From positions 1 through 64,000 of the forward strand of contig CABXZD010000002.1 in assembly GCA_902516465.1 (NCBI GenBank): a DNA stretch of 64,000 bases, given 5' to 3'. A model generated the notes under the pieces. That model made no database searches and had not been told where the DNA came from. It saw nothing but the letters and a program-made list of their open reading frames with translations. Both the position numbers and the translations under genes were made by a program. Shown one piece after another: positions 24,971 to 62,642 of this stretch (position 1 is its first letter; the number at the start of each line of letters is the position of its first letter). Origin of the DNA: an uncultured Pelagibacteraceae bacterium (GTDB lineage Bacteria > Pseudomonadota > Alphaproteobacteria > Pelagibacterales > Pelagibacteraceae).

Positions 24971-25231
24971 ATGTCAAAACAAGAACAACACTGGGAAAAA
25001 ACCAGGGGCTTGCTAATGATTACTTTAGCAATTTGGTTTGTTTTCTCAATTGGCATCTTCTTATTCGGAGCTGAAATGAATGAGGTCACTGGACCTTTCG
25101 GTTACCCATGGACATATTGGTTTACATGTCAGGGATCTCTTGGAATTTTCGTAATCCTAATTTTCTGGTTTGCGAATAGACAGGAAAAAATCGATGAGGA
25201 ATTCGGCTTTTCAGAAAGAGAGGAAGACTAA
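24971..25231 (+). CDS. DUF4212 small symporter subunit
   Basis: An 86-residue membrane protein with two helices ('LMITLAIWFVFSIGIFLFG' and 'YWFTCQGSLGIFVILIFWFANR') and the DUF4212 features 'HWEKTRGLLMITLAIW', 'GFPYPWTYW'-like 'FGYPWTYWFTCQGSLGIF' and a charged end. DUF4212 proteins are encoded directly before sodium:solute symporters of the VC_2705 subfamily and probably serve as their small partner. Here the stop and the symporter ATG overlap by one base (TAATG). Confidence 0.93.
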   Translation: MSKQEQHWEKTRGLLMITLAIWFVFSIGIFLFGAEMNEVTGPFGYPWTYWFTCQGSLGIFVILIFWFANRQEKIDEEFGFSEREED

Positions 25232-27042
25232 TGAAAGGTAATTTTATAGATAATTTGCCTAAAGTTTATGGAATCTACACAGGTGGTTTTTTAGGTTTCA
25301 TAATCATTATGAGCATTTGCGAACAGATGGGGATGACAGCAAAAACAATAGGTATTTGTTTTGTTGCTTTCACAGTAGCCATCTACGCAATAATTGGTTA
25401 TCTATCACGTACAGCACAAGCTGATGCTTATTACGTAGCTGGAAGACAAGTGCCAACGGTATTCAACGGAATGGCAACTGCAGCGGACTGGATGTCTGGT
25501 GCATCATTCGTTGCAATGGCAGGAGGTATTTACTTCAAAGGTTATGGATATATGGCACTACTTGTAGGTTGGACTGGTGGATATGTATTAGTCGCGTCTT
25601 TATTAGCACCATACTTAAGAAAGTTTGGCTGTTACACAGTTCCAGATTTCATTGGTACAAGATATGGTGGTAATTTAAGTAGATTTCTTGCAGTAGTAGT
25701 CTTAACTGTTGCATCTTTTACTTATGTGACTGCACAAATTAACGCTACAGGTACAATTGCATCTGTTGCACTTGATATTCCATTTCAATACGCAGTTTAT
25801 GTTGGATTAGTAAGTATCTTACTATGTTCAATGTTAGGTGGTATGAGAGGAGTAACTTGGACACAAGTTGCACAATACATCGTACTAATCATAGCTTACT
25901 TGCTTCCAGTATTTTGGATCAGTAACAAAATGGGTGCGGGATTCTTTCCTCACTTTATGTTAGCTGATGAAGTAGCTAGAATTGGTGAGTTAGAACAACA
26001 GTTTGGATTTGTTAAAAACGCTGCTGCTGATCTAAAAACAGTACCTAAAGGGTTAGCTGGAATAACTAAGGCTCACTCAGCAGTTAATGCTACGCCTTGG
26101 GCATTTATTTCATTAGCACTAGCAATGATGATGGGAACAGCTTCATTGCCTCACGTGATGATGAGATATTTCACTACTCCAAGTGTAAAAGCAGCTAGAA
26201 AATCAGTAGGTTGGTCTTTATTCTTTATCTTCCTACTTTACTCTTCTGCTCCAATGTTAGCGACGTTATCTAAATTGTCATTGATTGACCCGACATTATC
26301 TACTGGTATTATCGGTAAATCAATTGCAGAAGTTCAAGCGATCGATTGGTATCAAAACTGGAACCAAGCAAACTTAATGTTTGTAAGCGACTTTAACGGA
26401 AATGGAACTCTAGAGTTAAACGAGTTTTTCATGGGTGGTAAAGCCGTTGTGTTAGCAACTCCAGAAATTGCTGGATTACCATATGTAATCTCAGGTCTAG
26501 TTGCTGCTGGAGGTATGGCTGCTGCCATGTCAACGGCTGATGGTTTGATTCTAGCAATTGCGAATGCAATCTCACACGATGTTTACTACAAAATCATCGA
26601 TCCAAAAGCTGAGACTGCAAAACGACTAGTTGTTGCAAGGGTATTACTTGTAGTAATTGGTTTTGCTGGTGCAACAATCGCTGCTCTTGAGATACAAGGT
26701 ATTTTAGGTTCAGTAATCTGGGCTTTTGACTTTGCGATGTCAGGATTATTCTTCCCACTTGTACTTGGTGTCTGGTGGAAGAGAGCTAACAAAGAAGGTG
26801 CATGTGCTGGTATGGCTTTAGGATTACTTTCAGGACTAGGTTACCTAATATGGGTAAGAAATGGTGGAAGTGGATTCTTAGGTATTACACAGTTAACATT
26901 TGGTATCTTTGGTTCTGCAGTAAGTTTAGTAGCAATGGTAGTTGTAAGTTTAATGACTTCTGAGCCAAGTGCTGCTACACAAAGAATGGTTGATGAGGTT
27001 CGTGTACCATCAGGTAAATCGATCCTTGGCAAACAACACTAA
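25231..27042 (+). CDS. Sodium:solute symporter (VC_2705/ActP-like), probable acetate or short-chain acid uptake
   Basis: A 603-residue SSS-family transporter with about 13 membrane helices. Family segments include 'DAYYVAGRQVPTVFNGMATAADWMSGASFVAMAGGIY', 'RFLAVVVLTVASFTYVTAQINATG', 'GGMRGVTWTQVAQYIVLIIAY', 'GTASLPHVMMRYFTTPSVKAARKSVGWSL' and 'GGMAAAMSTADGLILAIANAISHDVYYKI'. A canonical EF-hand-like loop, 'DFNGNGTLELNE' (residues 387-398), lies in an extramembrane loop. Pairing with DUF4212 and nearness to acs suggest acetate or related monocarboxylate uptake, which is an inference. GC content looks higher than in neighbouring genes, as expected for a highly expressed transporter. A hairpin terminator follows. 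Confidence 0.92.
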   Translation: MKGNFIDNLPKVYGIYTGGFLGFIIIMSICEQMGMTAKTIGICFVAFTVAIYAIIGYLSRTAQADAYYVAGRQVPTVFNGMATAADWMSGASFVAMAGGIYFKGYGYMALLVGWTGGYVLVASLLAPYLRKFGCYTVPDFIGTRYGGNLSRFLAVVVLTVASFTYVTAQINATGTIASVALDIPFQYAVYVGLVSILLCSMLGGMRGVTWTQVAQYIVLIIAYLLPVFWISNKMGAGFFPHFMLADEVARIGELEQQFGFVKNAAADLKTVPKGLAGITKAHSAVNATPWAFISLALAMMMGTASLPHVMMRYFTTPSVKAARKSVGWSLFFIFLLYSSAPMLATLSKLSLIDPTLSTGIIGKSIAEVQAIDWYQNWNQANLMFVSDFNGNGTLELNEFFMGGKAVVLATPEIAGLPYVISGLVAAGGMAAAMSTADGLILAIANAISHDVYYKIIDPKAETAKRLVVARVLLVVIGFAGATIAALEIQGILGSVIWAFDFAMSGLFFPLVLGVWWKRANKEGACAGMALGLLSGLGYLIWVRNGGSGFLGITQLTFGIFGSAVSLVAMVVVSLMTSEPSAATQRMVDEVRVPSGKSILGKQH

Positions 27043-33980: not shown

Positions 33981-35034
33981 TTAATCTGCCAAACTTGTAA
34001 ATATTTTATTTGCATATTTATTTTTTCCTAAAACTTTTATCGAATTAGATAAAATTGAATTTTCAATTTTGCTCTCTAAATGAAAAAATTCATAAATAAA
34101 ATCTATCCCGCTTGAAAAAAGATAATTTTTATATTTTATTTTATTTTCAAAATTTTTACAAATTGAATTATCTAATTCTAATCCATGATCGATTTTAAAC
34201 TTAATCAATTCTAATAAAAGTTTAATGTCTCTTATAGACATATTAAATCCCTGACCTGCTAATGGATGAACTTTATGTAATAATTCTCCAAAAGCTAAAA
34301 TATTTTTATGGTAGTAGTTCCTCAAGTTTGATGAGATAAGTTTAAAATTAAATATTTGATTGATTTTAGTAATTGAATATTTCGTATTATACTTTTCTAT
34401 AGTTTTTTTTAAATCGATATTTCCATAATTTCTAACAGAGTAAACTACAGAAGTCTTTTTACTAGAAATAGGTAGGAAAGCCAAAGGACCTCTCTTGGTA
34501 AATATTTGAATAGCGGTATTATTTCTTGATAATTTTTTATGATCAATGACAGTTGTATAAGCATAACTATCATACTCTTTATTAAATTTTTTGTAAAAAT
34601 ATTTTTTTGTAAAAAAATTATTAGAATCACAATTTATAATTAATTTATAATCATCATAATTGAGCTTAATTTTTTTGTTTTTTTTTTTGAAAAAAAAATT
34701 TTTTTTAAGTAATGAGATAAGATGATTGTATAATTCAAAATTTTTGACAATTGAAAAAAGCTCATTACTATGATTATGGAATTTTAAAATTTTTTCATTT
34801 TGGAGATTATCACTATATATTTCTATTTTATCGATCTTCCATAATAATTTTTTAAGATTAAGACCATTAGAATTTAAAAAATCAATATTTTTTTTTGAAA
34901 TACCTATTGTTCTTGATTTGTTAATTTCTTTTTTCCCGAAGTCTGAAAAAAAAATCTACGTATATTCCTTGGTTGACTAGAACTTTAGCCAATGTCAAGC
35001 TTACTAATCCGTTTCCAATAATTGCTACTTTCAT
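33981..35034 (-). CDS. UbiH/UbiF-type FAD monooxygenase, frame broken once in this sequence
   Basis: A flavin aromatic hydroxylase of the ubiquinone-hydroxylase family. The N terminus 'MKVAIIGNGLVSLTLAKVLVNQGIYVDFF' (from ATG at 35034) is the FAD-binding Rossmann motif. Further on 'YKLIINCDSNN', 'YTTVIDHKKLSRNNTAIQIFTKRGPLAFLPIS' and 'AFGELLHKVHPLAGQGFNMSIRDIKLLLELI' are the family's NAD(P)H/substrate and GD-type FAD segments. The frame breaks at the 9-base A/T run 34946-34954; removing one base gives one 350-residue reading frame. The ORF track shows only fragments (33981-34484 is the C-terminal half). It may hydroxylate a ubiquinone precursor; which position cannot be told. Confidence 0.82.
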
Positions 35035-35064
35035 AATATTTTTAATTTTAACAATAAAAATTAG

Positions 35065-50192: not shown

Positions 50193-50762
50193 TTATTTAA
50201 GCTCATTTAATATTTTTTTTATACTAGCTTTAACAGATTTTTTTGTAAAATTGTTATTTATGATAAAGTTAGACTTCTTTTTTTTGTAATCAAGTGGAAG
50301 TTGTAAACCTTTAAATTTAATTAATAATTTTTTGTTAAAATTTTTTCTTCCTTTTAATCTTTTTAAAATATTTTTTTTTTTTGAGTTAATAAAAACTAAA
50401 ATATCTTTTTTTTTATTAATTTTATTTTCTAATAAGAGAGGAATATCCATAATTATAAATTTTTTATTTTTATTTCTTTTAACAAAATTATCCATTTCTC
50501 TTCTAACTTCGGGGTGAACAATTTGAACTATTTTTTTCAAATTATTTTTTTTAGTTAGTATTATTTCTGTTATTTCCTGTTTCCTAAGTGGAAAAGAGTG
50601 AATATGTTTGGGAAAAAATTTTTTAAATTTTTTGTATATTTCTCTATTTTGTTGATATAATTTTGCAACCACCTTATCTGCGCTAAAAACAGGAAAACCA
50701 AAATTATAAGCTACATAAGTTTTTCCAGATCCAATATCACCCAAAATCCCAATTCTAATCAT
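50193..50762 (-). CDS. coaE: Dephospho-CoA kinase
   Basis: Phosphorylates the 3'-OH of dephospho-CoA, the last step of CoA synthesis. The 189-residue protein has the P-loop 'IGILGDIGSGKTYVAYNFGFPVFSADKVVAKLY' with Thr replacing the usual Ser after Lys, the CoA-contact 'DIPLLLENK' and a LID region. The sequence is very lysine-rich and contains many long A runs in the coding strand, yet the frame is open throughout. It overlaps aroE by 8 bp. Confidence 0.93.
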   Translation of the reverse strand: MIRIGILGDIGSGKTYVAYNFGFPVFSADKVVAKLYQQNREIYKKFKKFFPKHIHSFPLRKQEITEIILTKKNNLKKIVQIVHPEVRREMDNFVKRNKNKKFIIMDIPLLLENKINKKKDILVFINSKKKNILKRLKGRKNFNKKLLIKFKGLQLPLDYKKKKSNFIINNNFTKKSVKASIKKILNELK

Positions 50763-51552: not shown

Positions 51553-52133
51553 GTATAATTATCTAAATATGCTTGAATCTTTTTTATTGGTAATCCCATA
51601 ACAGTATCCTTGTCCCCATCAATTTTTAGAAATAATTTTTTTCCTACTCCTTCAATTTGATAAACATTATAAGCGTATAAAGATTCATCTGGTATTTTAG
51701 ACAAATATTCTTTTAGTTCTTCGTCACTGAATTTTTTCATTGTTAAGCTAGCTTTATCAGTATAATTCCAAATCATAGACCCATTTTTTGAAATGCATAC
51801 TGAACTCACTAAATTATGTTTCTTTCCATTCAATTTTTTTAGAATACTTAAGGCCTCTTCTCTATTTCGAGGTTTAGAAATAAGCTCACCTTCTAAATCT
51901 ATAACACTATCAGCTCCTAAAACCAACACATCTAAATTATTTTGACTAACTTTACAGGCTTTAAGTTCTGCTAAATTTTTAGAAATAATTTCTGGGGATG
52001 CATTTTCACCAAGCAAACTTTGTTTGATAGGGTCTTCATCGACATTGGAAGGTTGAACCTCTACAAGAATATTGTTTCTATCTAATATATCTTTCCTAAC
52101 TTTGCTTCTTGACGCAAGTATTAATTTAAACAT
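51549..52133 (-). CDS. maf: Maf-family nucleotide pyrophosphatase
   Basis: A 194-residue Maf protein that hydrolyses non-canonical or modified nucleoside triphosphates. It has 'LILASRSKVRKDILDRNNI', 'VLGADSVIDLEGELISKPRNREEALSILKKLNGKKHNLVSSVCI' and 'AYNVYQIEGVGKKLFLKIDGDKDTVMGLPI'. The sequence 'ASRS-x-VR' with 'ISKP' suggests the alphaproteobacterial Maf subgroup near oriC rather than YhdE. It overlaps ppsR by 8 bp and aroE by 4 bp. Confidence 0.93.
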   Translation of the reverse strand: MFKLILASRSKVRKDILDRNNILVEVQPSNVDEDPIKQSLLGENASPEIISKNLAELKACKVSQNNLDVLVLGADSVIDLEGELISKPRNREEALSILKKLNGKKHNLVSSVCISKNGSMIWNYTDKASLTMKKFSDEELKEYLSKIPDESLYAYNVYQIEGVGKKLFLKIDGDKDTVMGLPIKKIQAYLDNYT

Positions 52134-52950
52134 TTTGTTTATAAATTTCGTATATCTTTATTACTGAGGCTGCAGTTTCTTCAACAGATTTTCTAGTTAC
52201 ATCTATTGTGGGCCATCCATATTTACGAAATGTTCCTTTTGCGTTATCCACTTCTTTTTTAATTTTTTCTAAATCTGTATAAGATTTGTTTTCAGTTTCT
52301 TTCAGTGAATTCATTCTATTTTTTCTTATATCAACCAATCTTTCTGGTTCTGTGCTCAGACCAATAATACAAGAAATTTTTGGACTATCTTTTAAAACTT
52401 GTGGTATAGAATTTTCATTTACTAATGGAATATTTGAAGTTTTAAAACCTTTGTTTGCTAAATAAATTGCAGTCGGTGTTTTACTTGTTCTACTAACTCC
52501 CAATAAAATTATATCAGATTTTTTTATTTCTTTTACTAGATTTCCATCGTCATGATTCATTGTAAATTGAATAGCTTCAATTCTTTTATAATATTCTTCA
52601 TTTAAAGTGTATTGTCCACTTGGTTCATGAGATGCTTTTTGATTTAATAGTTTAGAAAAACTGAGTATAAGATCGCCGAGTACTCCAAAACATGGAATGT
52701 TTTTCTCATCACTTGTATTTGCTAGAAATTTCGCAAGATTACTGTCAACAATAGAATAAAGAATTACAGAGTTTGGTTGTTTTTTTGCATTAGATAAAAT
52801 TTTAGTAATTTGATTTTCTGTTCTTGTAAATGAAAATGTGTAAATTTTGTAATCAATATTTTTGAATTGAGCTTTGATAGCAGTAAAAATTCTATCTAGG
52901 GTTTCACCAGTAGAATCCGAAACTAAATAAATTTGATATGTATTGTTCAT
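52126..52950 (-). CDS. ppsR: Pyruvate phosphate dikinase / PEP synthase regulatory protein (DUF299)
   Basis: Bifunctional ADP-dependent kinase/Pi-dependent phosphorylase that switches PPDK or PEP synthase off and on. The 274-residue protein begins 'YQIYLVSDSTGETLDRIFTAIKAQF' and has the P-loop-like 'DIILLGVSRTSKTPTAIYLANKGFKTSNIPLV' and 'IIGLSTEPERLVDIRKNRM'. It is the first gene of the maf-aroE-coaE-dnaQ operon and flanks the candidate origin, a position this family holds in other alphaproteobacteria. Confidence 0.95.
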   Translation of the reverse strand: MNNTYQIYLVSDSTGETLDRIFTAIKAQFKNIDYKIYTFSFTRTENQITKILSNAKKQPNSVILYSIVDSNLAKFLANTSDEKNIPCFGVLGDLILSFSKLLNQKASHEPSGQYTLNEEYYKRIEAIQFTMNHDDGNLVKEIKKSDIILLGVSRTSKTPTAIYLANKGFKTSNIPLVNENSIPQVLKDSPKISCIIGLSTEPERLVDIRKNRMNSLKETENKSYTDLEKIKKEVDNAKGTFRKYGWPTIDVTRKSVEETAASVIKIYEIYKQNV

Positions 52951-53232
52951 GTATAAATTGTTGATATGTATGTTTTATTTAAATCATATTGGATATTTTT
53001 AATATTGAATAATTAACATTGTAAAACATTGATTTTATCAACATTATTAAAACTATGTATAATAATTCAACTATATTTGAATAAATTGTTAATAGGCTAC
53101 AATATTACTTATATATTTAATAAATTTAAGGCTCTAAATGTTAATAAAAAGTTTATAAAATGTTGAAAAAAATTAATTACCGTTATTCACAGACTATATT
53201 ACAAATACTAGTAACTATATTTAATTATTAAT
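52951..53232. other. Candidate chromosomal replication origin (oriC) between ppsR and hemE
   Basis: This 282-bp divergent spacer is the longest in the window. I counted 45 G/C bases, about 16% GC, well below the genes around it. It contains one exact DnaA box, TTATTCACA at 53183-53191 (TTWTNCACA), and near-matches TTATCAACA at 53035-53043 and TTTTCAACA on the minus strand at 53161-53169. In Caulobacter and Rickettsia the origin lies next to hemE, and parS/parAB and mnmG-rsmG lie within 8 kb here. Both promoters of the flanking genes must also be in this stretch. Origin function is inferred. Confidence 0.7.
53183..53191 (+). promoter_or_regulatory. DnaA box in the ppsR/hemE spacer
   Basis: TTATTCACA fits TTWTNCACA at all nine positions. 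It lies 41 bases before the hemE start inside the candidate origin. A single exact box is sparse compared with E. coli, but alphaproteobacterial origins often have few strong boxes. Confidence 0.65.
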
Positions 53233-54234
53233 ATGTCACAAATTTATGAAATTATAATAAATAAAAAAACAAATTTGAATCCTATATGGATTATGAGACA
53301 AGCTGGAAGATATCTTCCTGAGTTTAGAGAAATCAGGAAAAAAAATAGTGATTTCATTAAATTGTGCTTGAATCCTAGTTTAGCAACAGAAATAACCTTA
53401 CAGCCTTTAAAAAGATTTGAATTAGATGCCGCTATAATTTTTTCAGACATTTTAATGGTGCCCTATGGCTTGAATCAAAAAGTTGAATTCAAAAAAAATT
53501 TTGGCCCAATTCTTGGAAAATTAGATCTGCAAAAAATATCAAATTTTAATGAAGAAGACTTTACTGAAAAACTTAAACCAGTTTATACGGCAATAGATTT
53601 AGTTAGAAAAAATGATTTAACGTTAAATAAAAGTACGATAGGTTTTGTGGGCGCACCTTGGACATTACTGGTTTATTTAATAAATAAGAAATCCCCAAAG
53701 CAGAAATTAATCAATAATTTCTTTCAAGACCTACGTTCAATAAAAACAATTTTATTAGTTTTAGATAAATTTCTTAAAATCCATATTAAAAATCAAATAG
53801 ATAATGGTGCAGAGGTAATACAAATATTCGATAGTTGGGCTGGTTTACTAGAGACTAAAGATTTACCAGATTATGTTTATTCACCAACCTTATCTCTAGT
53901 AGAGTATATTAAATCTTTGAATATTCCAGCTATATGTTTTCCACGAGGGATTAAAAATTATAAAATTTATTGTGATAATATAAAACCTGATGCTATTTGT
54001 ATTGATTATGAAACTGATCCAATTCAAATTAGAAGAGACATCAAAATACCTGTACAAGGCGGTATGGACCCGAAAGTATTATTGTCTGATAAAGAAAATT
54101 TAAAAAAAGAGGCAAAAAAATATCTAGATATATTTAAAGACCATCCATATATTTTTAATTTAGGCCATGGTGTTTTACCTCAAACAGACCCAAACATGAT
54201 GGATTATCTTGTAAAAATGGTAAAAGACTATTAA
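53233..54234 (+). CDS. hemE: Uroporphyrinogen decarboxylase
   Basis: Decarboxylates the four acetate side chains of uroporphyrinogen III to give coproporphyrinogen III. The 333-residue barrel has the signature 'NPIWIMRQAGRYLPEFREIR', 'DAAIIFSDILMVPYGLN', 'GFVGAPWTLLVYLI', 'VIQIFDSWAGLL', 'QGGMDPKVLL' and 'FNLGHGVLPQTDP'. It heads hemE-hemH-hemJ, with a 1-bp overlap to hemH. Confidence 0.98.
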   Translation: MSQIYEIIINKKTNLNPIWIMRQAGRYLPEFREIRKKNSDFIKLCLNPSLATEITLQPLKRFELDAAIIFSDILMVPYGLNQKVEFKKNFGPILGKLDLQKISNFNEEDFTEKLKPVYTAIDLVRKNDLTLNKSTIGFVGAPWTLLVYLINKKSPKQKLINNFFQDLRSIKTILLVLDKFLKIHIKNQIDNGAEVIQIFDSWAGLLETKDLPDYVYSPTLSLVEYIKSLNIPAICFPRGIKNYKIYCDNIKPDAICIDYETDPIQIRRDIKIPVQGGMDPKVLLSDKENLKKEAKKYLDIFKDHPYIFNLGHGVLPQTDPNMMDYLVKMVKDY

Positions 54235-60362: not shown

Positions 60363-61009
60363 TGGATAACATAATTTTAAATTCTTACTCTAAAATTTCT
60401 AATTTAAATGTTTCACGTGAAACATGTAATGAGCTGGAGAGCTTAGTTTCGATGATACAGAAAAAAAATAAGAAAATTAATATTATAAGTAAAAAAATGA
60501 GTGAAAAAGGGGCTATAAGAGAGCGTCATATTATAGATTCTGCACAAATTATTGATTTTGTTGATTTAAATTGCAATACAACCTCTGATTTAGGTACAGG
60601 GGGTGGAATGCCTGGATTAATAGTGGCTATAGTGATGAAAAAAATTAAAAATAACATGAAAGTTAACCTTTATGAAAAAAGCTACCACAAATGTGTTTTC
60701 CTGAGAGAAGTTTCAAAAAAATTAAATTTAAATACAGAAATAATTCAGAAAGATATTTTTTCACTTAAAAATATTGAAACAGGAACAATTATGTCCAGGG
60801 CTTTTAAACCAATGCCAGTGATTTTAAATTTGGTTAATGAAAATTTTAAAAAATATAAAAATATTATTTTTTTTATGGGAAGTAGTGGAAGAAAAATTTT
60901 TAATGAAACACTTCAAGAGTGGGATTTAGATTTTGAGGAAAAAAAAAGCTTAACAAGCAACGACTCATTCATATTAAACATCAAAAAAATTAAAAAAAAG
61001 ATTTCATGA
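60362..61009 (+). CDS. rsmG: 16S rRNA (guanine-N7) methyltransferase RsmG (GidB), gene carries parS
   Basis: Methylates N7 of G527 in 16S rRNA. The 215-residue protein (ATG at 60362; the track's TTG at 60359 adds one residue) has 'VSRETCNELESLVSMIQKKNKKINIISKKMSEKGAIRERHIIDSAQI', the SAM loop 'TSDLGTGGGMPGLIVAIVM', 'LYEKSYHKCVFLREVSKKL' and 'IMSRAFKPM'. The codons for 'NVSRET' contain a perfect parS palindrome. It overlaps mnmG by 1 bp and parA by 4 bp. Confidence 0.96.
   Translation: MDNIILNSYSKISNLNVSRETCNELESLVSMIQKKNKKINIISKKMSEKGAIRERHIIDSAQIIDFVDLNCNTTSDLGTGGGMPGLIVAIVMKKIKNNMKVNLYEKSYHKCVFLREVSKKLNLNTEIIQKDIFSLKNIETGTIMSRAFKPMPVILNLVNENFKKYKNIIFFMGSSGRKIFNETLQEWDLDFEEKKSLTSNDSFILNIKKIKKKIS
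60409..60424. other. parS centromere site (perfect 16-bp palindrome)
   Basis: TGTTTCACGTGAAACA is identical on both strands and matches the consensus bound by chromosomal ParB/Spo0J. It lies within rsmG, about 600 bp before parA and about 7.2 kb from the candidate oriC. I found no second exact copy when reading the window. ParB would load here and spread to organise origin segregation. Confidence 0.95.
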
Positions 61010-61800
61010 AAATAATTTCAATTATAAATCAAAAGGGTGGAGTTGGAAAAACAACAACTGTAATTAATTTAGCTTCGGCACTATCTCAACTTGGTAAAAA
61101 AATTTTAGTAATCGATCTAGATCCGCAAGGAAATGCTACTACAGGGTTGGGATTATCTAATACTGAGCAATCAGATCAAACAATATATGGAATTTTGAAT
61201 GGCACAGTAGCAATTTCTGATGTAATCAAGAAAACAAAATTTGAAAACTTAGATTTAATTTCTTCCAACGTTGATTTGTCAGGATTAGAAGTAGAAACAG
61301 CAGGAGATAGCGACAGAGCATTTATTTTGAAGAGTAAATTGACCGCGTATTTAAACAATTCTAGAGCTTTATATGATTATGTCTTAATAGACTGCCCACC
61401 ATCTTTGAGTTTGTTAACTGTAATGGCCTTGGTATCTTCAAATTCACTTTTAGTGCCCCTCCAGACAGAATTTTTTGCTTTAGAGGGCTTAACACAGCTT
61501 ATGAAGACCATCGAAAGAATAAAGATTAATCTAAATCCTAGTTTGACTATACAGGGAATACTTTTAACAATGTATGACAGAAGAAATAAACTTTCATCGC
61601 AAGTAGAACAAGAAGCAAGAGATTATTTTAAGGATAAAGTTTACCAGACAGTTATTCCACGTAACGTAAGACTATCCGAAGCACCATCACATGGGATACC
61701 AGTCTTAATTTATGATAAAAATTGCCCTGGGAGTAAGTCGTATTATAGTTTTACAGATGAATTCATAAATCAAGAAAACAATTTAGGAAGTGCTGCATAA
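61006..61800 (+). CDS. parA: Chromosome partitioning ATPase ParA
   Basis: Walker-type ATPase that moves ParB-parS complexes. The 264-residue chromosomal form has no N-terminal HTH. It begins 'MKIISIINQKGGVGKTTTVINLASAL' (deviant Walker A with the signature Lys), and has 'VLVIDLDPQGNATTGLG'-like 'ILVIDLDPQGNATTGLGL', 'YDYVLIDCPPSLSLLTVMAL', 'VPLQTEFFALEGLTQLMKTIERI' and 'RNVRLSEAPSHGIPVLIYD'. It overlaps rsmG by 4 bp and parB by 1 bp. Confidence 0.98.
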   Translation: MKIISIINQKGGVGKTTTVINLASALSQLGKKILVIDLDPQGNATTGLGLSNTEQSDQTIYGILNGTVAISDVIKKTKFENLDLISSNVDLSGLEVETAGDSDRAFILKSKLTAYLNNSRALYDYVLIDCPPSLSLLTVMALVSSNSLLVPLQTEFFALEGLTQLMKTIERIKINLNPSLTIQGILLTMYDRRNKLSSQVEQEARDYFKDKVYQTVIPRNVRLSEAPSHGIPVLIYDKNCPGSKSYYSFTDEFINQENNLGSAA

Positions 61801-62642
61801 TGAATAAAATTAAAAAAGGTTTAGGAAGAGGTTTGTCATCCTTAATTGGTGAAAGTAAGGTTGAACCTAAATCTAATAAATTATTGTTAAGTGATATTAT
61901 TCCAAATAAATTTCAGCCTCGAAAAATTTTTGATGAAGATAACCTTAATGACTTAACAAATTCAATAAAGGAACGAGGAGTAATTCAACCGATTATCGTA
62001 AGAAGCTCAATGGACAATAACTCAAAGTTTGAAATTATAGCTGGTGAGAGAAGGTGGTTAGCAGCAAGAAAAGCGGGCCTACATGATATTCCTGCTATAG
62101 TCACAGAAGCTGATGATCTTAAATCTTTAGAGTTTGCGATTGTTGAAAATGTTCAACGAAATGATCTAAACCCTTTAGAAGAAGCCCAAGGATATAAAAG
62201 ATTAATAGATGAATTTTCTTATGATCAGGAAAAAGTGTCTAAATTTATTGGTAAAAGTAGAAGCTATATTACTAATTCATTAAGGCTTTTAAGTTTGCCT
62301 CAAGAAGTTTTAAAATTTATAGATGAAAAAAAAATAACGGTAGGCCATGGCAAAATTTTAGTGGGTCTAGATAATGCTTTATTTGTAGCAAATAAAATTA
62401 TTGAAAAAAAGTTATCAGTAAGACAAGCAGAGAGTTTTGTAAAAATTTTTAAAAAAAATCCATCTATAAAAAAACTTCCAAAAGATCCAAATTTAAGAAG
62501 TCTTGAACAAAATTTGTCTGAAAAAATTGGATTAAACGTCGTTATCAAAAATAATAAAAAAAATAAAGGAACAATTACTTTTGCTTTTCATGATAACGAA
62601 CAGCTAAACAAAATTATTGATATAATAAAATCTAATTATTAA
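61800..62642 (+). CDS. parB: Chromosome partitioning protein ParB
   Basis: CTP-dependent clamp that loads at parS. The 280-residue protein opens 'KIKKGLGRGLSSLIGE', the ParA-interacting tail, then 'LLLSDIIPNKFQPRKIFDEDNLNDLTNSIKERGVIQPIIVR', the CTPase box 'IAGERRWLAARKAG', 'ENVQRNDLNPLEEAQGYKRLIDEF', the HTH 'DQEKVSKFIGKSRSYITNSLRLLSLP', 'ISVGHGKIL'-like 'ITVGHGKILVGL' and the C-terminal dimerisation domain. Its cognate site parS lies 1.4 kb upstream in rsmG. It overlaps the convergent holA end by 4 bp. Confidence 0.98.
   Translation: MNKIKKGLGRGLSSLIGESKVEPKSNKLLLSDIIPNKFQPRKIFDEDNLNDLTNSIKERGVIQPIIVRSSMDNNSKFEIIAGERRWLAARKAGLHDIPAIVTEADDLKSLEFAIVENVQRNDLNPLEEAQGYKRLIDEFSYDQEKVSKFIGKSRSYITNSLRLLSLPQEVLKFIDEKKITVGHGKILVGLDNALFVANKIIEKKLSVRQAESFVKIFKKNPSIKKLPKDPNLRSLEQNLSEKIGLNVVIKNNKKNKGTITFAFHDNEQLNKIIDIIKSNY

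Follow-up and report, generated by a model that had tools for sequence, protein, structure and literature searches.

A probable chromosomal replication origin in the ppsR-hemE spacer of a SAR11 bacterium

The ppsR-hemE locus and its DnaA boxes

The stretch of DNA analysed, here called the window, comprises positions 1-64000 of a 268,828 bp contig (C2) from a 1.04 Mb assembly of 20 contigs; the named relatives of its hemE gene are all Pelagibacteraceae or Pelagibacterales, i.e. SAR11 bacteria. Profile matches place ppsR (DUF299/COG1806; NF003742, E 5.7e-90) at 52126..52950 on the minus strand and hemE (TIGR01464, E 1.6e-93) at 53233..54234 on the plus strand, the left and right flanks of a putative oriC spacer of 282 bp (52951..53232) from which the two genes diverge. 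The length, G+C content (16.0%) and flanks given for this spacer in the original prediction were borne out. Its description as the longest and most AT-rich spacer of the window was not: the longest ORF-free gap lies at 34485-35064 (580 bp, 20.5% G+C), and a stretch at 50209 has a lower G+C content (13.8%). The G+C-rich peak (0.39) at 25231-27042 is a sodium:solute symporter gene beside an acyl/acetyl-CoA synthetase-like gene, not the rRNA operon running toward the origin that had been suspected at 25-27 kb.

The locus had been likened to the neighbourhood of the Caulobacter and Rickettsia origins, and the literature confirms that both of these lie between hemE and COG1806 (PMC1914354). Both flanking genes of this alphaproteobacterial origin type are present here, and the spacer further resembles the Caulobacter crescentus Cori and Rickettsia oriC, where COG1806 corresponds to ppsR, in an AT content above the genome average and in its DnaA boxes (PMC1914354). 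The two genes are divergent in 30/30 of the first loci compared (the window's own and 29 relatives), with a gap of 261-324 bp, and ppsR opposes hemE in all SAR11 loci in which both genes were found adjacent. Two relatives have hemE in two pieces (G030:C1:358209-359206, with a frame break, and G080:C5:73513-74509, with two TAA stops in one piece), reflecting either decay or assembly error.

The exact DnaA box TTATTCACA reported at 53183-53191 is present and is the sole exact copy in the 64-kb window; since 1.5 copies are expected there by chance, it proves nothing alone, and the case for an origin rests on comparison with relatives. The two near-match boxes are also present as claimed, TTATCAACA at 53035 (+) and TTTTCAACA at 53161 (-). 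The three TTATNNACA sites in the spacer exceed chance (shuffles, P = 0.009), and the densest cluster of such sites lies in the spacer both on the 269-kb contig and in G003, a 1.2-Mb relative in one contig.

Alignment with relatives resolves the spacer into a series of box positions. On the left lie position A (52959..52967, minus strand; ATATCAACA here, consensus TTATTAACA), which is spacer position 9(-) and carries TTATNNACA in 61/142 spacers, position B (TTATCAACA, 53035..53043, plus strand), which is spacer position 85(+) and is occupied in 81/142, and a tentative, degenerate position C (53054..53062, minus strand; alignment consensus TGTTAATAA on the plus strand) that is weak in this genome. 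On the right, three leftward boxes with 11-bp spacing occupy conserved columns on the minus strand: D (TTATTAACA, 53139..53147), E (53150..53158; TTATAAACT here, consensus TTATAAACA) and F (TTTTCAACA, 53161..53169). They are followed on the plus strand by a degenerate, co-oriented site (TTAATTACC, 53173..53181), also in conserved columns with C at 53181 in 89%, and by box G, the exact TTATTCACA at 53183..53191, whose columns are essentially gap-free across 142 sequences and whose A-C-A end is 98-100% conserved. Box D at 53139 and the third phased site at 53150 are additions to the original prediction, as are the triplets at 53196-53213 described below. A conserved non-box element (53094-53105; consensus about AAGCTTCAATTTT) lies between the left and right box groups.

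Conservation of the box array and a DnaA-trio-like module

A total of 142 distinct ppsR-hemE spacers (260-289 bp, median G+C 16.5%) was taken from 170 loci. They contain 3.10 TTATNNACA sites per spacer against 0.37 expected from shuffles, at fixed spacer positions 9(-), 85(+), 189(-), 200(-), about 211(-) and 233(+); this anatomy was measured in the same sequences in which it was discovered. The check for conserved 9-mers in related spacers that the original prediction had proposed thus finds boxes kept in place. The 440 sites are spelled mainly TTATTAACA (211), TTATTCACA (73), TTATAAACA (60), TTATCAACA (41) and TTATACACA (20), with variation mostly limited to box positions 5-6, and the standing of TTATTAACA as the commonest box (211/440) supports the earlier idea of a lineage-specific weak DnaA site. 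Across 76 named loci, TTATNNACA density is 12.2 per kb in the spacer, compared with 0.85 for the remaining intergenic gaps and 1.22 for the divergent ones among them. The spacer carries a cluster of the kind that marks a DnaA-dependent oriC, exceeding both chance and the remainder of the genome in box density. A matrix of the 74-bp array, from which this genome and G003 were excluded and in which other relatives were included, scores 78.9 bits at the spacer, whereas the second-ranking place on the contig reaches -7.5. In some relatives the first two bases of box G are degenerate, and several other genera have a weak box there.

Four nucleotides after box G, the plus strand reads ATA-TTA-CAA-ATA-CTA-GTA (53196..53213; complement 3'-NAT-5'), a run of DnaA-trio-like triplets. 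In the general layout, box G is separated by 4 nt from a run of five or six NTA triplets in one phase, which stops 19-22 bp upstream of hemE and, like the box, occupies essentially gap-free columns; in the 142-spacer family, NTA occurs 3.74 times per 5 triplets in phase vs 0.06 and 0.25 in the other frames, under a trio model fixed only after the SAR11 columns were seen. Repeats of 3'-NAT-5' are the pattern of the DnaA-trio (PMC8287927; PMC6669920). What is left of the spacer as far as the hemE start codon (53214..53232) is AT-rich; it is the putative start of the unwound region and supplies, within a spacer of 16% G+C, the AT-rich element expected after a DnaA box. Box G and the triplets are, on this evidence, a predicted DnaA-box plus DnaA-trio "basal unwinding system" (BUS), and TTAATTACC at 53173..53181 is possibly its weak partner box. 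Under the BUS rules a box may differ from TTATCCACA at up to 2 positions and must lie no more than 16 bp from the trios, and TTATTCACA has 1 mismatch and lies 4 bp away; they also ask for at least 3 consecutive triplets with a central A on the complementary strand, which are present, although the strict rule catches the last three only. No GC cluster precedes the trios, the 4-nt spacer being GACT here and AT-rich and variable in relatives; such a cluster is not demanded by the BUS rule set (PMC8287927). Strict rule-based scoring (consecutive NTN only) proved too rigid for CAA-containing trios, in sister family f2 and in other Alphaproteobacteria, and a log-odds box-trio score was used in its place.

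The array was also followed to loci that have lost a flanking gene. One genus (g8; L248-L251) lacks hemE at this site, and opposite its ppsR, across an AT-rich spacer of about 380 bp, stands rho, identified from its N-terminus; leftward boxes are found in 4/4 of these loci, and NTA repeats remain beside ppsR, clearly above shuffles in 2/4. The sole hemE-like match in genome G008 is distant (about 32% identity) and lies elsewhere in that genome. No ppsR match was found in 18 genomes of f2 (G118-G135). Upstream of hemE in this family (L252-L262), the box-trio score exceeds the shuffle mean + 2 sd in 11/11 loci in the forward direction and 1/11 in reverse, and two of the 11 carry the textbook CTACTACTACTA. 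Among other Alphaproteobacteria (L303-L332), ppsR lies <=1.5 kb from hemE in 29/30 loci, the score passes the threshold in 12/30 forward vs 3/30 reverse, and many loci show CACAGG plus CTAC-type triplets upstream of hemE.

Similarity to B. subtilis DnaA (8BTG) extends along the length of this genome's DnaA, whose domain IV can be aligned with that of E. coli DnaA (1J1V) and retains RRSR, SLPEIG and RDHTT. Canonical box recognition is therefore expected of this DnaA, and boxes with A at position 6 are accordingly expected to be weak; Caulobacter provides a precedent for origins with weak boxes (PMC4285127). CtrA sites (TTAAN7TTAA) are not enriched in the family (0.36 per spacer vs 0.28 expected) and none occurs in the window spacer; Brilli et al. 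(PMC2877005) detected no ortholog of ctrA in Pelagibacter. GANTC sites are rare (0.035 vs 0.117 expected per spacer). IHF-like WATCAANNNNTTR exceeds expectation (0.275 vs 0.072 per spacer) but varies in position, and box B is overlapped by one of its matches in the window. Considered as regulators, the CtrA, IHF, GANTC and GATC sites showed no positional conservation.

Strand asymmetry and partition genes at chromosome scale

GC skew had been proposed as a check on the original prediction, and its outcome is mixed: in two single-contig relatives of different genera the terminus lies nearly opposite the spacer and not opposite dnaA, whereas the raw skew minimum is ambiguous. G003 (1.2 Mb, one contig) carries the spacer at 67 kb and dnaA at 129.5 kb; its raw cumulative skew is flat around the origin, with a minimum at 97.9 kb, about 31 kb from the spacer. 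On the window's contig the raw minimum is at 85 kb and dnaA at 116.5 kb. Raw cumulative skew, with a minimum midway between spacer and dnaA, was rejected as an indecisive discriminator. The maxima of G003 (skew, 675 kb; gene-strand, 673 kb) lie close to the 667 kb expected from the spacer vs about 730 kb from dnaA, the skew maximum being 55 kb from the point opposite dnaA. The second genus, G005 (covered over 0-800 kb), has its skew maximum at 493 kb; the spacer predicts 510 kb and dnaA 581 kb.

Gene-corrected skew at four-fold sites places the G003 changepoint at 35-75 kb (within 3 lnL), with a gain of 40 vs a shuffled maximum of 10.6, and dnaA as breakpoint fits 8.8 lnL worse; the polarity of this corrected skew is opposite to that of the usual G+T-rich leading strand. 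T/(T+A) and G/(G+C) are 0.502 and 0.453 in genes of the presumed leading strand and 0.529 and 0.477 in those of the lagging strand. The tRNA genes of G003 are on the leading strand, pointing away from the spacer, in 24/31 cases (binomial P about 0.002), and its 16S rRNA gene is likewise on the leading strand. Of 11 single-contig relatives examined, ten have a 16S match, and in 10/10 it points away from the spacer.

The nearby parS, parAB and mnmG-rsmG named in the original prediction were recovered as well. An exact 16-bp parS palindrome (TGTTTCACGTGAAACA, 60409..60424) lies inside the 5' part of rsmG, 7.2 kb from the spacer, and is followed on the plus strand by parA (61006..61800; best match to a ParA/RepA partition family, below that family's curated cut-off) and parB (61800..62642; TIGR00180). 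All parS sites (<=1 mismatch) in the 11 single-contig relatives lie 7-20 kb from the spacer, singly in 10/11 and as two sites in G032; positions in these parS and 16S counts were compared by hand and, owing to synteny, are non-independent. In G005 and G030, single-contig relatives of other genera, parS lies 17-19 kb from the spacer in the direction of ppsR rather than of hemE, which suggests inversions around the origin. No credible E. coli-type dif site was found in the contig or G003, where the best matches had 7-8 mismatches of 28.

The spacer as a probable SAR11 origin

The anatomy, spacing and triplet phase of the spacer are conserved, its array is unique in the genome and persists where one or the other flanking gene is lost, and the chromosome is polarised about it. 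We conclude that the ppsR-hemE spacer is very probably the chromosomal replication origin (oriC) of this SAR11 bacterium (probability about 0.92), at which DnaA, judging from sequence comparison, would bind, unwind the DNA and initiate replication. DnaA-ATP would load onto an array whose boxes (TTAT[T/A/C][A/C]ACA) keep fixed positions and are for the most part degenerate; among them are the three leftward boxes, which follow one another at intervals of one helical turn (11 bp). A DnaA oligomer would grow rightward from the strongest site, TTATTCACA at 53183-53191, perhaps joined by the degenerate co-oriented site upstream, and extend onto the bottom-strand 3'-NAT-5' triplets (53196-53213). 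It would then stretch and open the AT-rich DNA directly upstream of hemE, where the helicase would be loaded; forks would depart both ways, and ParB at the single parS 7.2 kb away would segregate the new origins.

The spacer might instead be only the divergent promoter region of ppsR and hemE, its 9-mers serving as transcription-factor or promoter elements and DnaA at most regulating both genes. Divergent intergenic regions are often conserved, and AT-rich repeats near start codons look like promoter -10 elements; yet boxes are about tenfold denser here than in the other divergent gaps of the loci compared, the phase-locked triplets fit the DnaA-trio pattern, and a single parS and the rRNA polarity centre on the spacer. 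A pure promoter reading does not predict an array that outlasts loss of hemE (L248-L251) and of ppsR (L252-L262) and recurs in other Alphaproteobacteria, and we consider it improbable. Less probable still is an origin at another site no more than about 60 kb away, such as next to dnaA (at 116.5 kb on the contig) or where the raw skew is lowest (85 kb). Many bacteria keep oriC beside dnaA, and the raw minima (85 kb on the contig, 98 kb in G003) do fall between spacer and dnaA. Against this, two genomes were found to have no TTAT[ACT][AC]ACA box closer to dnaA than about 1 kb, the spacer is the densest cluster, parS is closer to the spacer, and both the corrected skew and the position of the terminus in two genera disfavour dnaA.

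The candidate origin differs from known systems in several respects. Compared with the Caulobacter Cori, SAR11 spacers lack CtrA-site enrichment, GANTC is rare, and the boxes are TTAT[TAC]AACA-like rather than the TGATCCACA G-boxes and TCCCCA W-boxes of Caulobacter (PMC4285127). With the BUS of the Bacillus subtilis type it shares a DnaA-box, a short spacer and at least 3 in-phase triplets followed by AT-rich DNA (PMC8287927, PMC6669920, PMC10721633), and the C. difficile trio 5'-CACCTACTACTATTACTACTATGA-3' has the strand and phase of the SAR11 triplets (PMC7561715). The SAR11 module departs from the B. subtilis type in that most of its triplets read 3'-[T/G]AT-5' and a GC cluster is absent, a single close-match box stands at the trios with a very degenerate second co-oriented box, and the module is not beside dnaA. 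The hemE-proximal origins of the other Alphaproteobacteria (L303-L332) likewise have ppsR facing hemE and a recurrent CACAGG-plus-triplet motif, from which SAR11 has by eye drifted to AT (TTATTCACA-GACT-ATATTACAAATACTA vs TTATCCACAGG-nATC-CACTACAACTACTACC).

The hemE/COG1806 address (PMC1914354) and the box-trio module (PMC8287927) were already known. In the open-access papers searched, no SAR11 hemE-linked origin and no DnaA boxes of a Pelagibacter oriC were found, and nothing there appears to describe the spelling of the SAR11 boxes, the phased array of three boxes, the drift of the trios or the lack of CtrA-site enrichment; an automatic DoriC prediction for the SAR11 origin may well exist. 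The findings also point to a box-plus-trio module upstream of hemE as an ancestral feature of Alphaproteobacteria, independent of CtrA control. We tentatively propose, at somewhat less than even odds, that the SAR11 origin is a stripped-down, CtrA-free one, made mostly of weak, lineage-specific TTAT[T/A/C]AACA sites, in which one strong box anchors a drifted DnaA-trio module; the latter would be an AT-rich derivative of a box-plus-trio unit that has kept its place upstream of hemE from the alphaproteobacterial common ancestor onward.

Few marine cells are as abundant as those of SAR11 bacteria, whose growth rates in situ are inferred from origin-to-terminus coverage. A base-resolved origin would give such coverage-based estimates a fixed anchor, and the 282-bp spacer offers a defined piece for studies of DnaA binding and unwinding. 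If the origin is as stripped down as proposed, the timing of initiation in the ocean's most abundant bacteria would be set by the level of DnaA-ATP alone.
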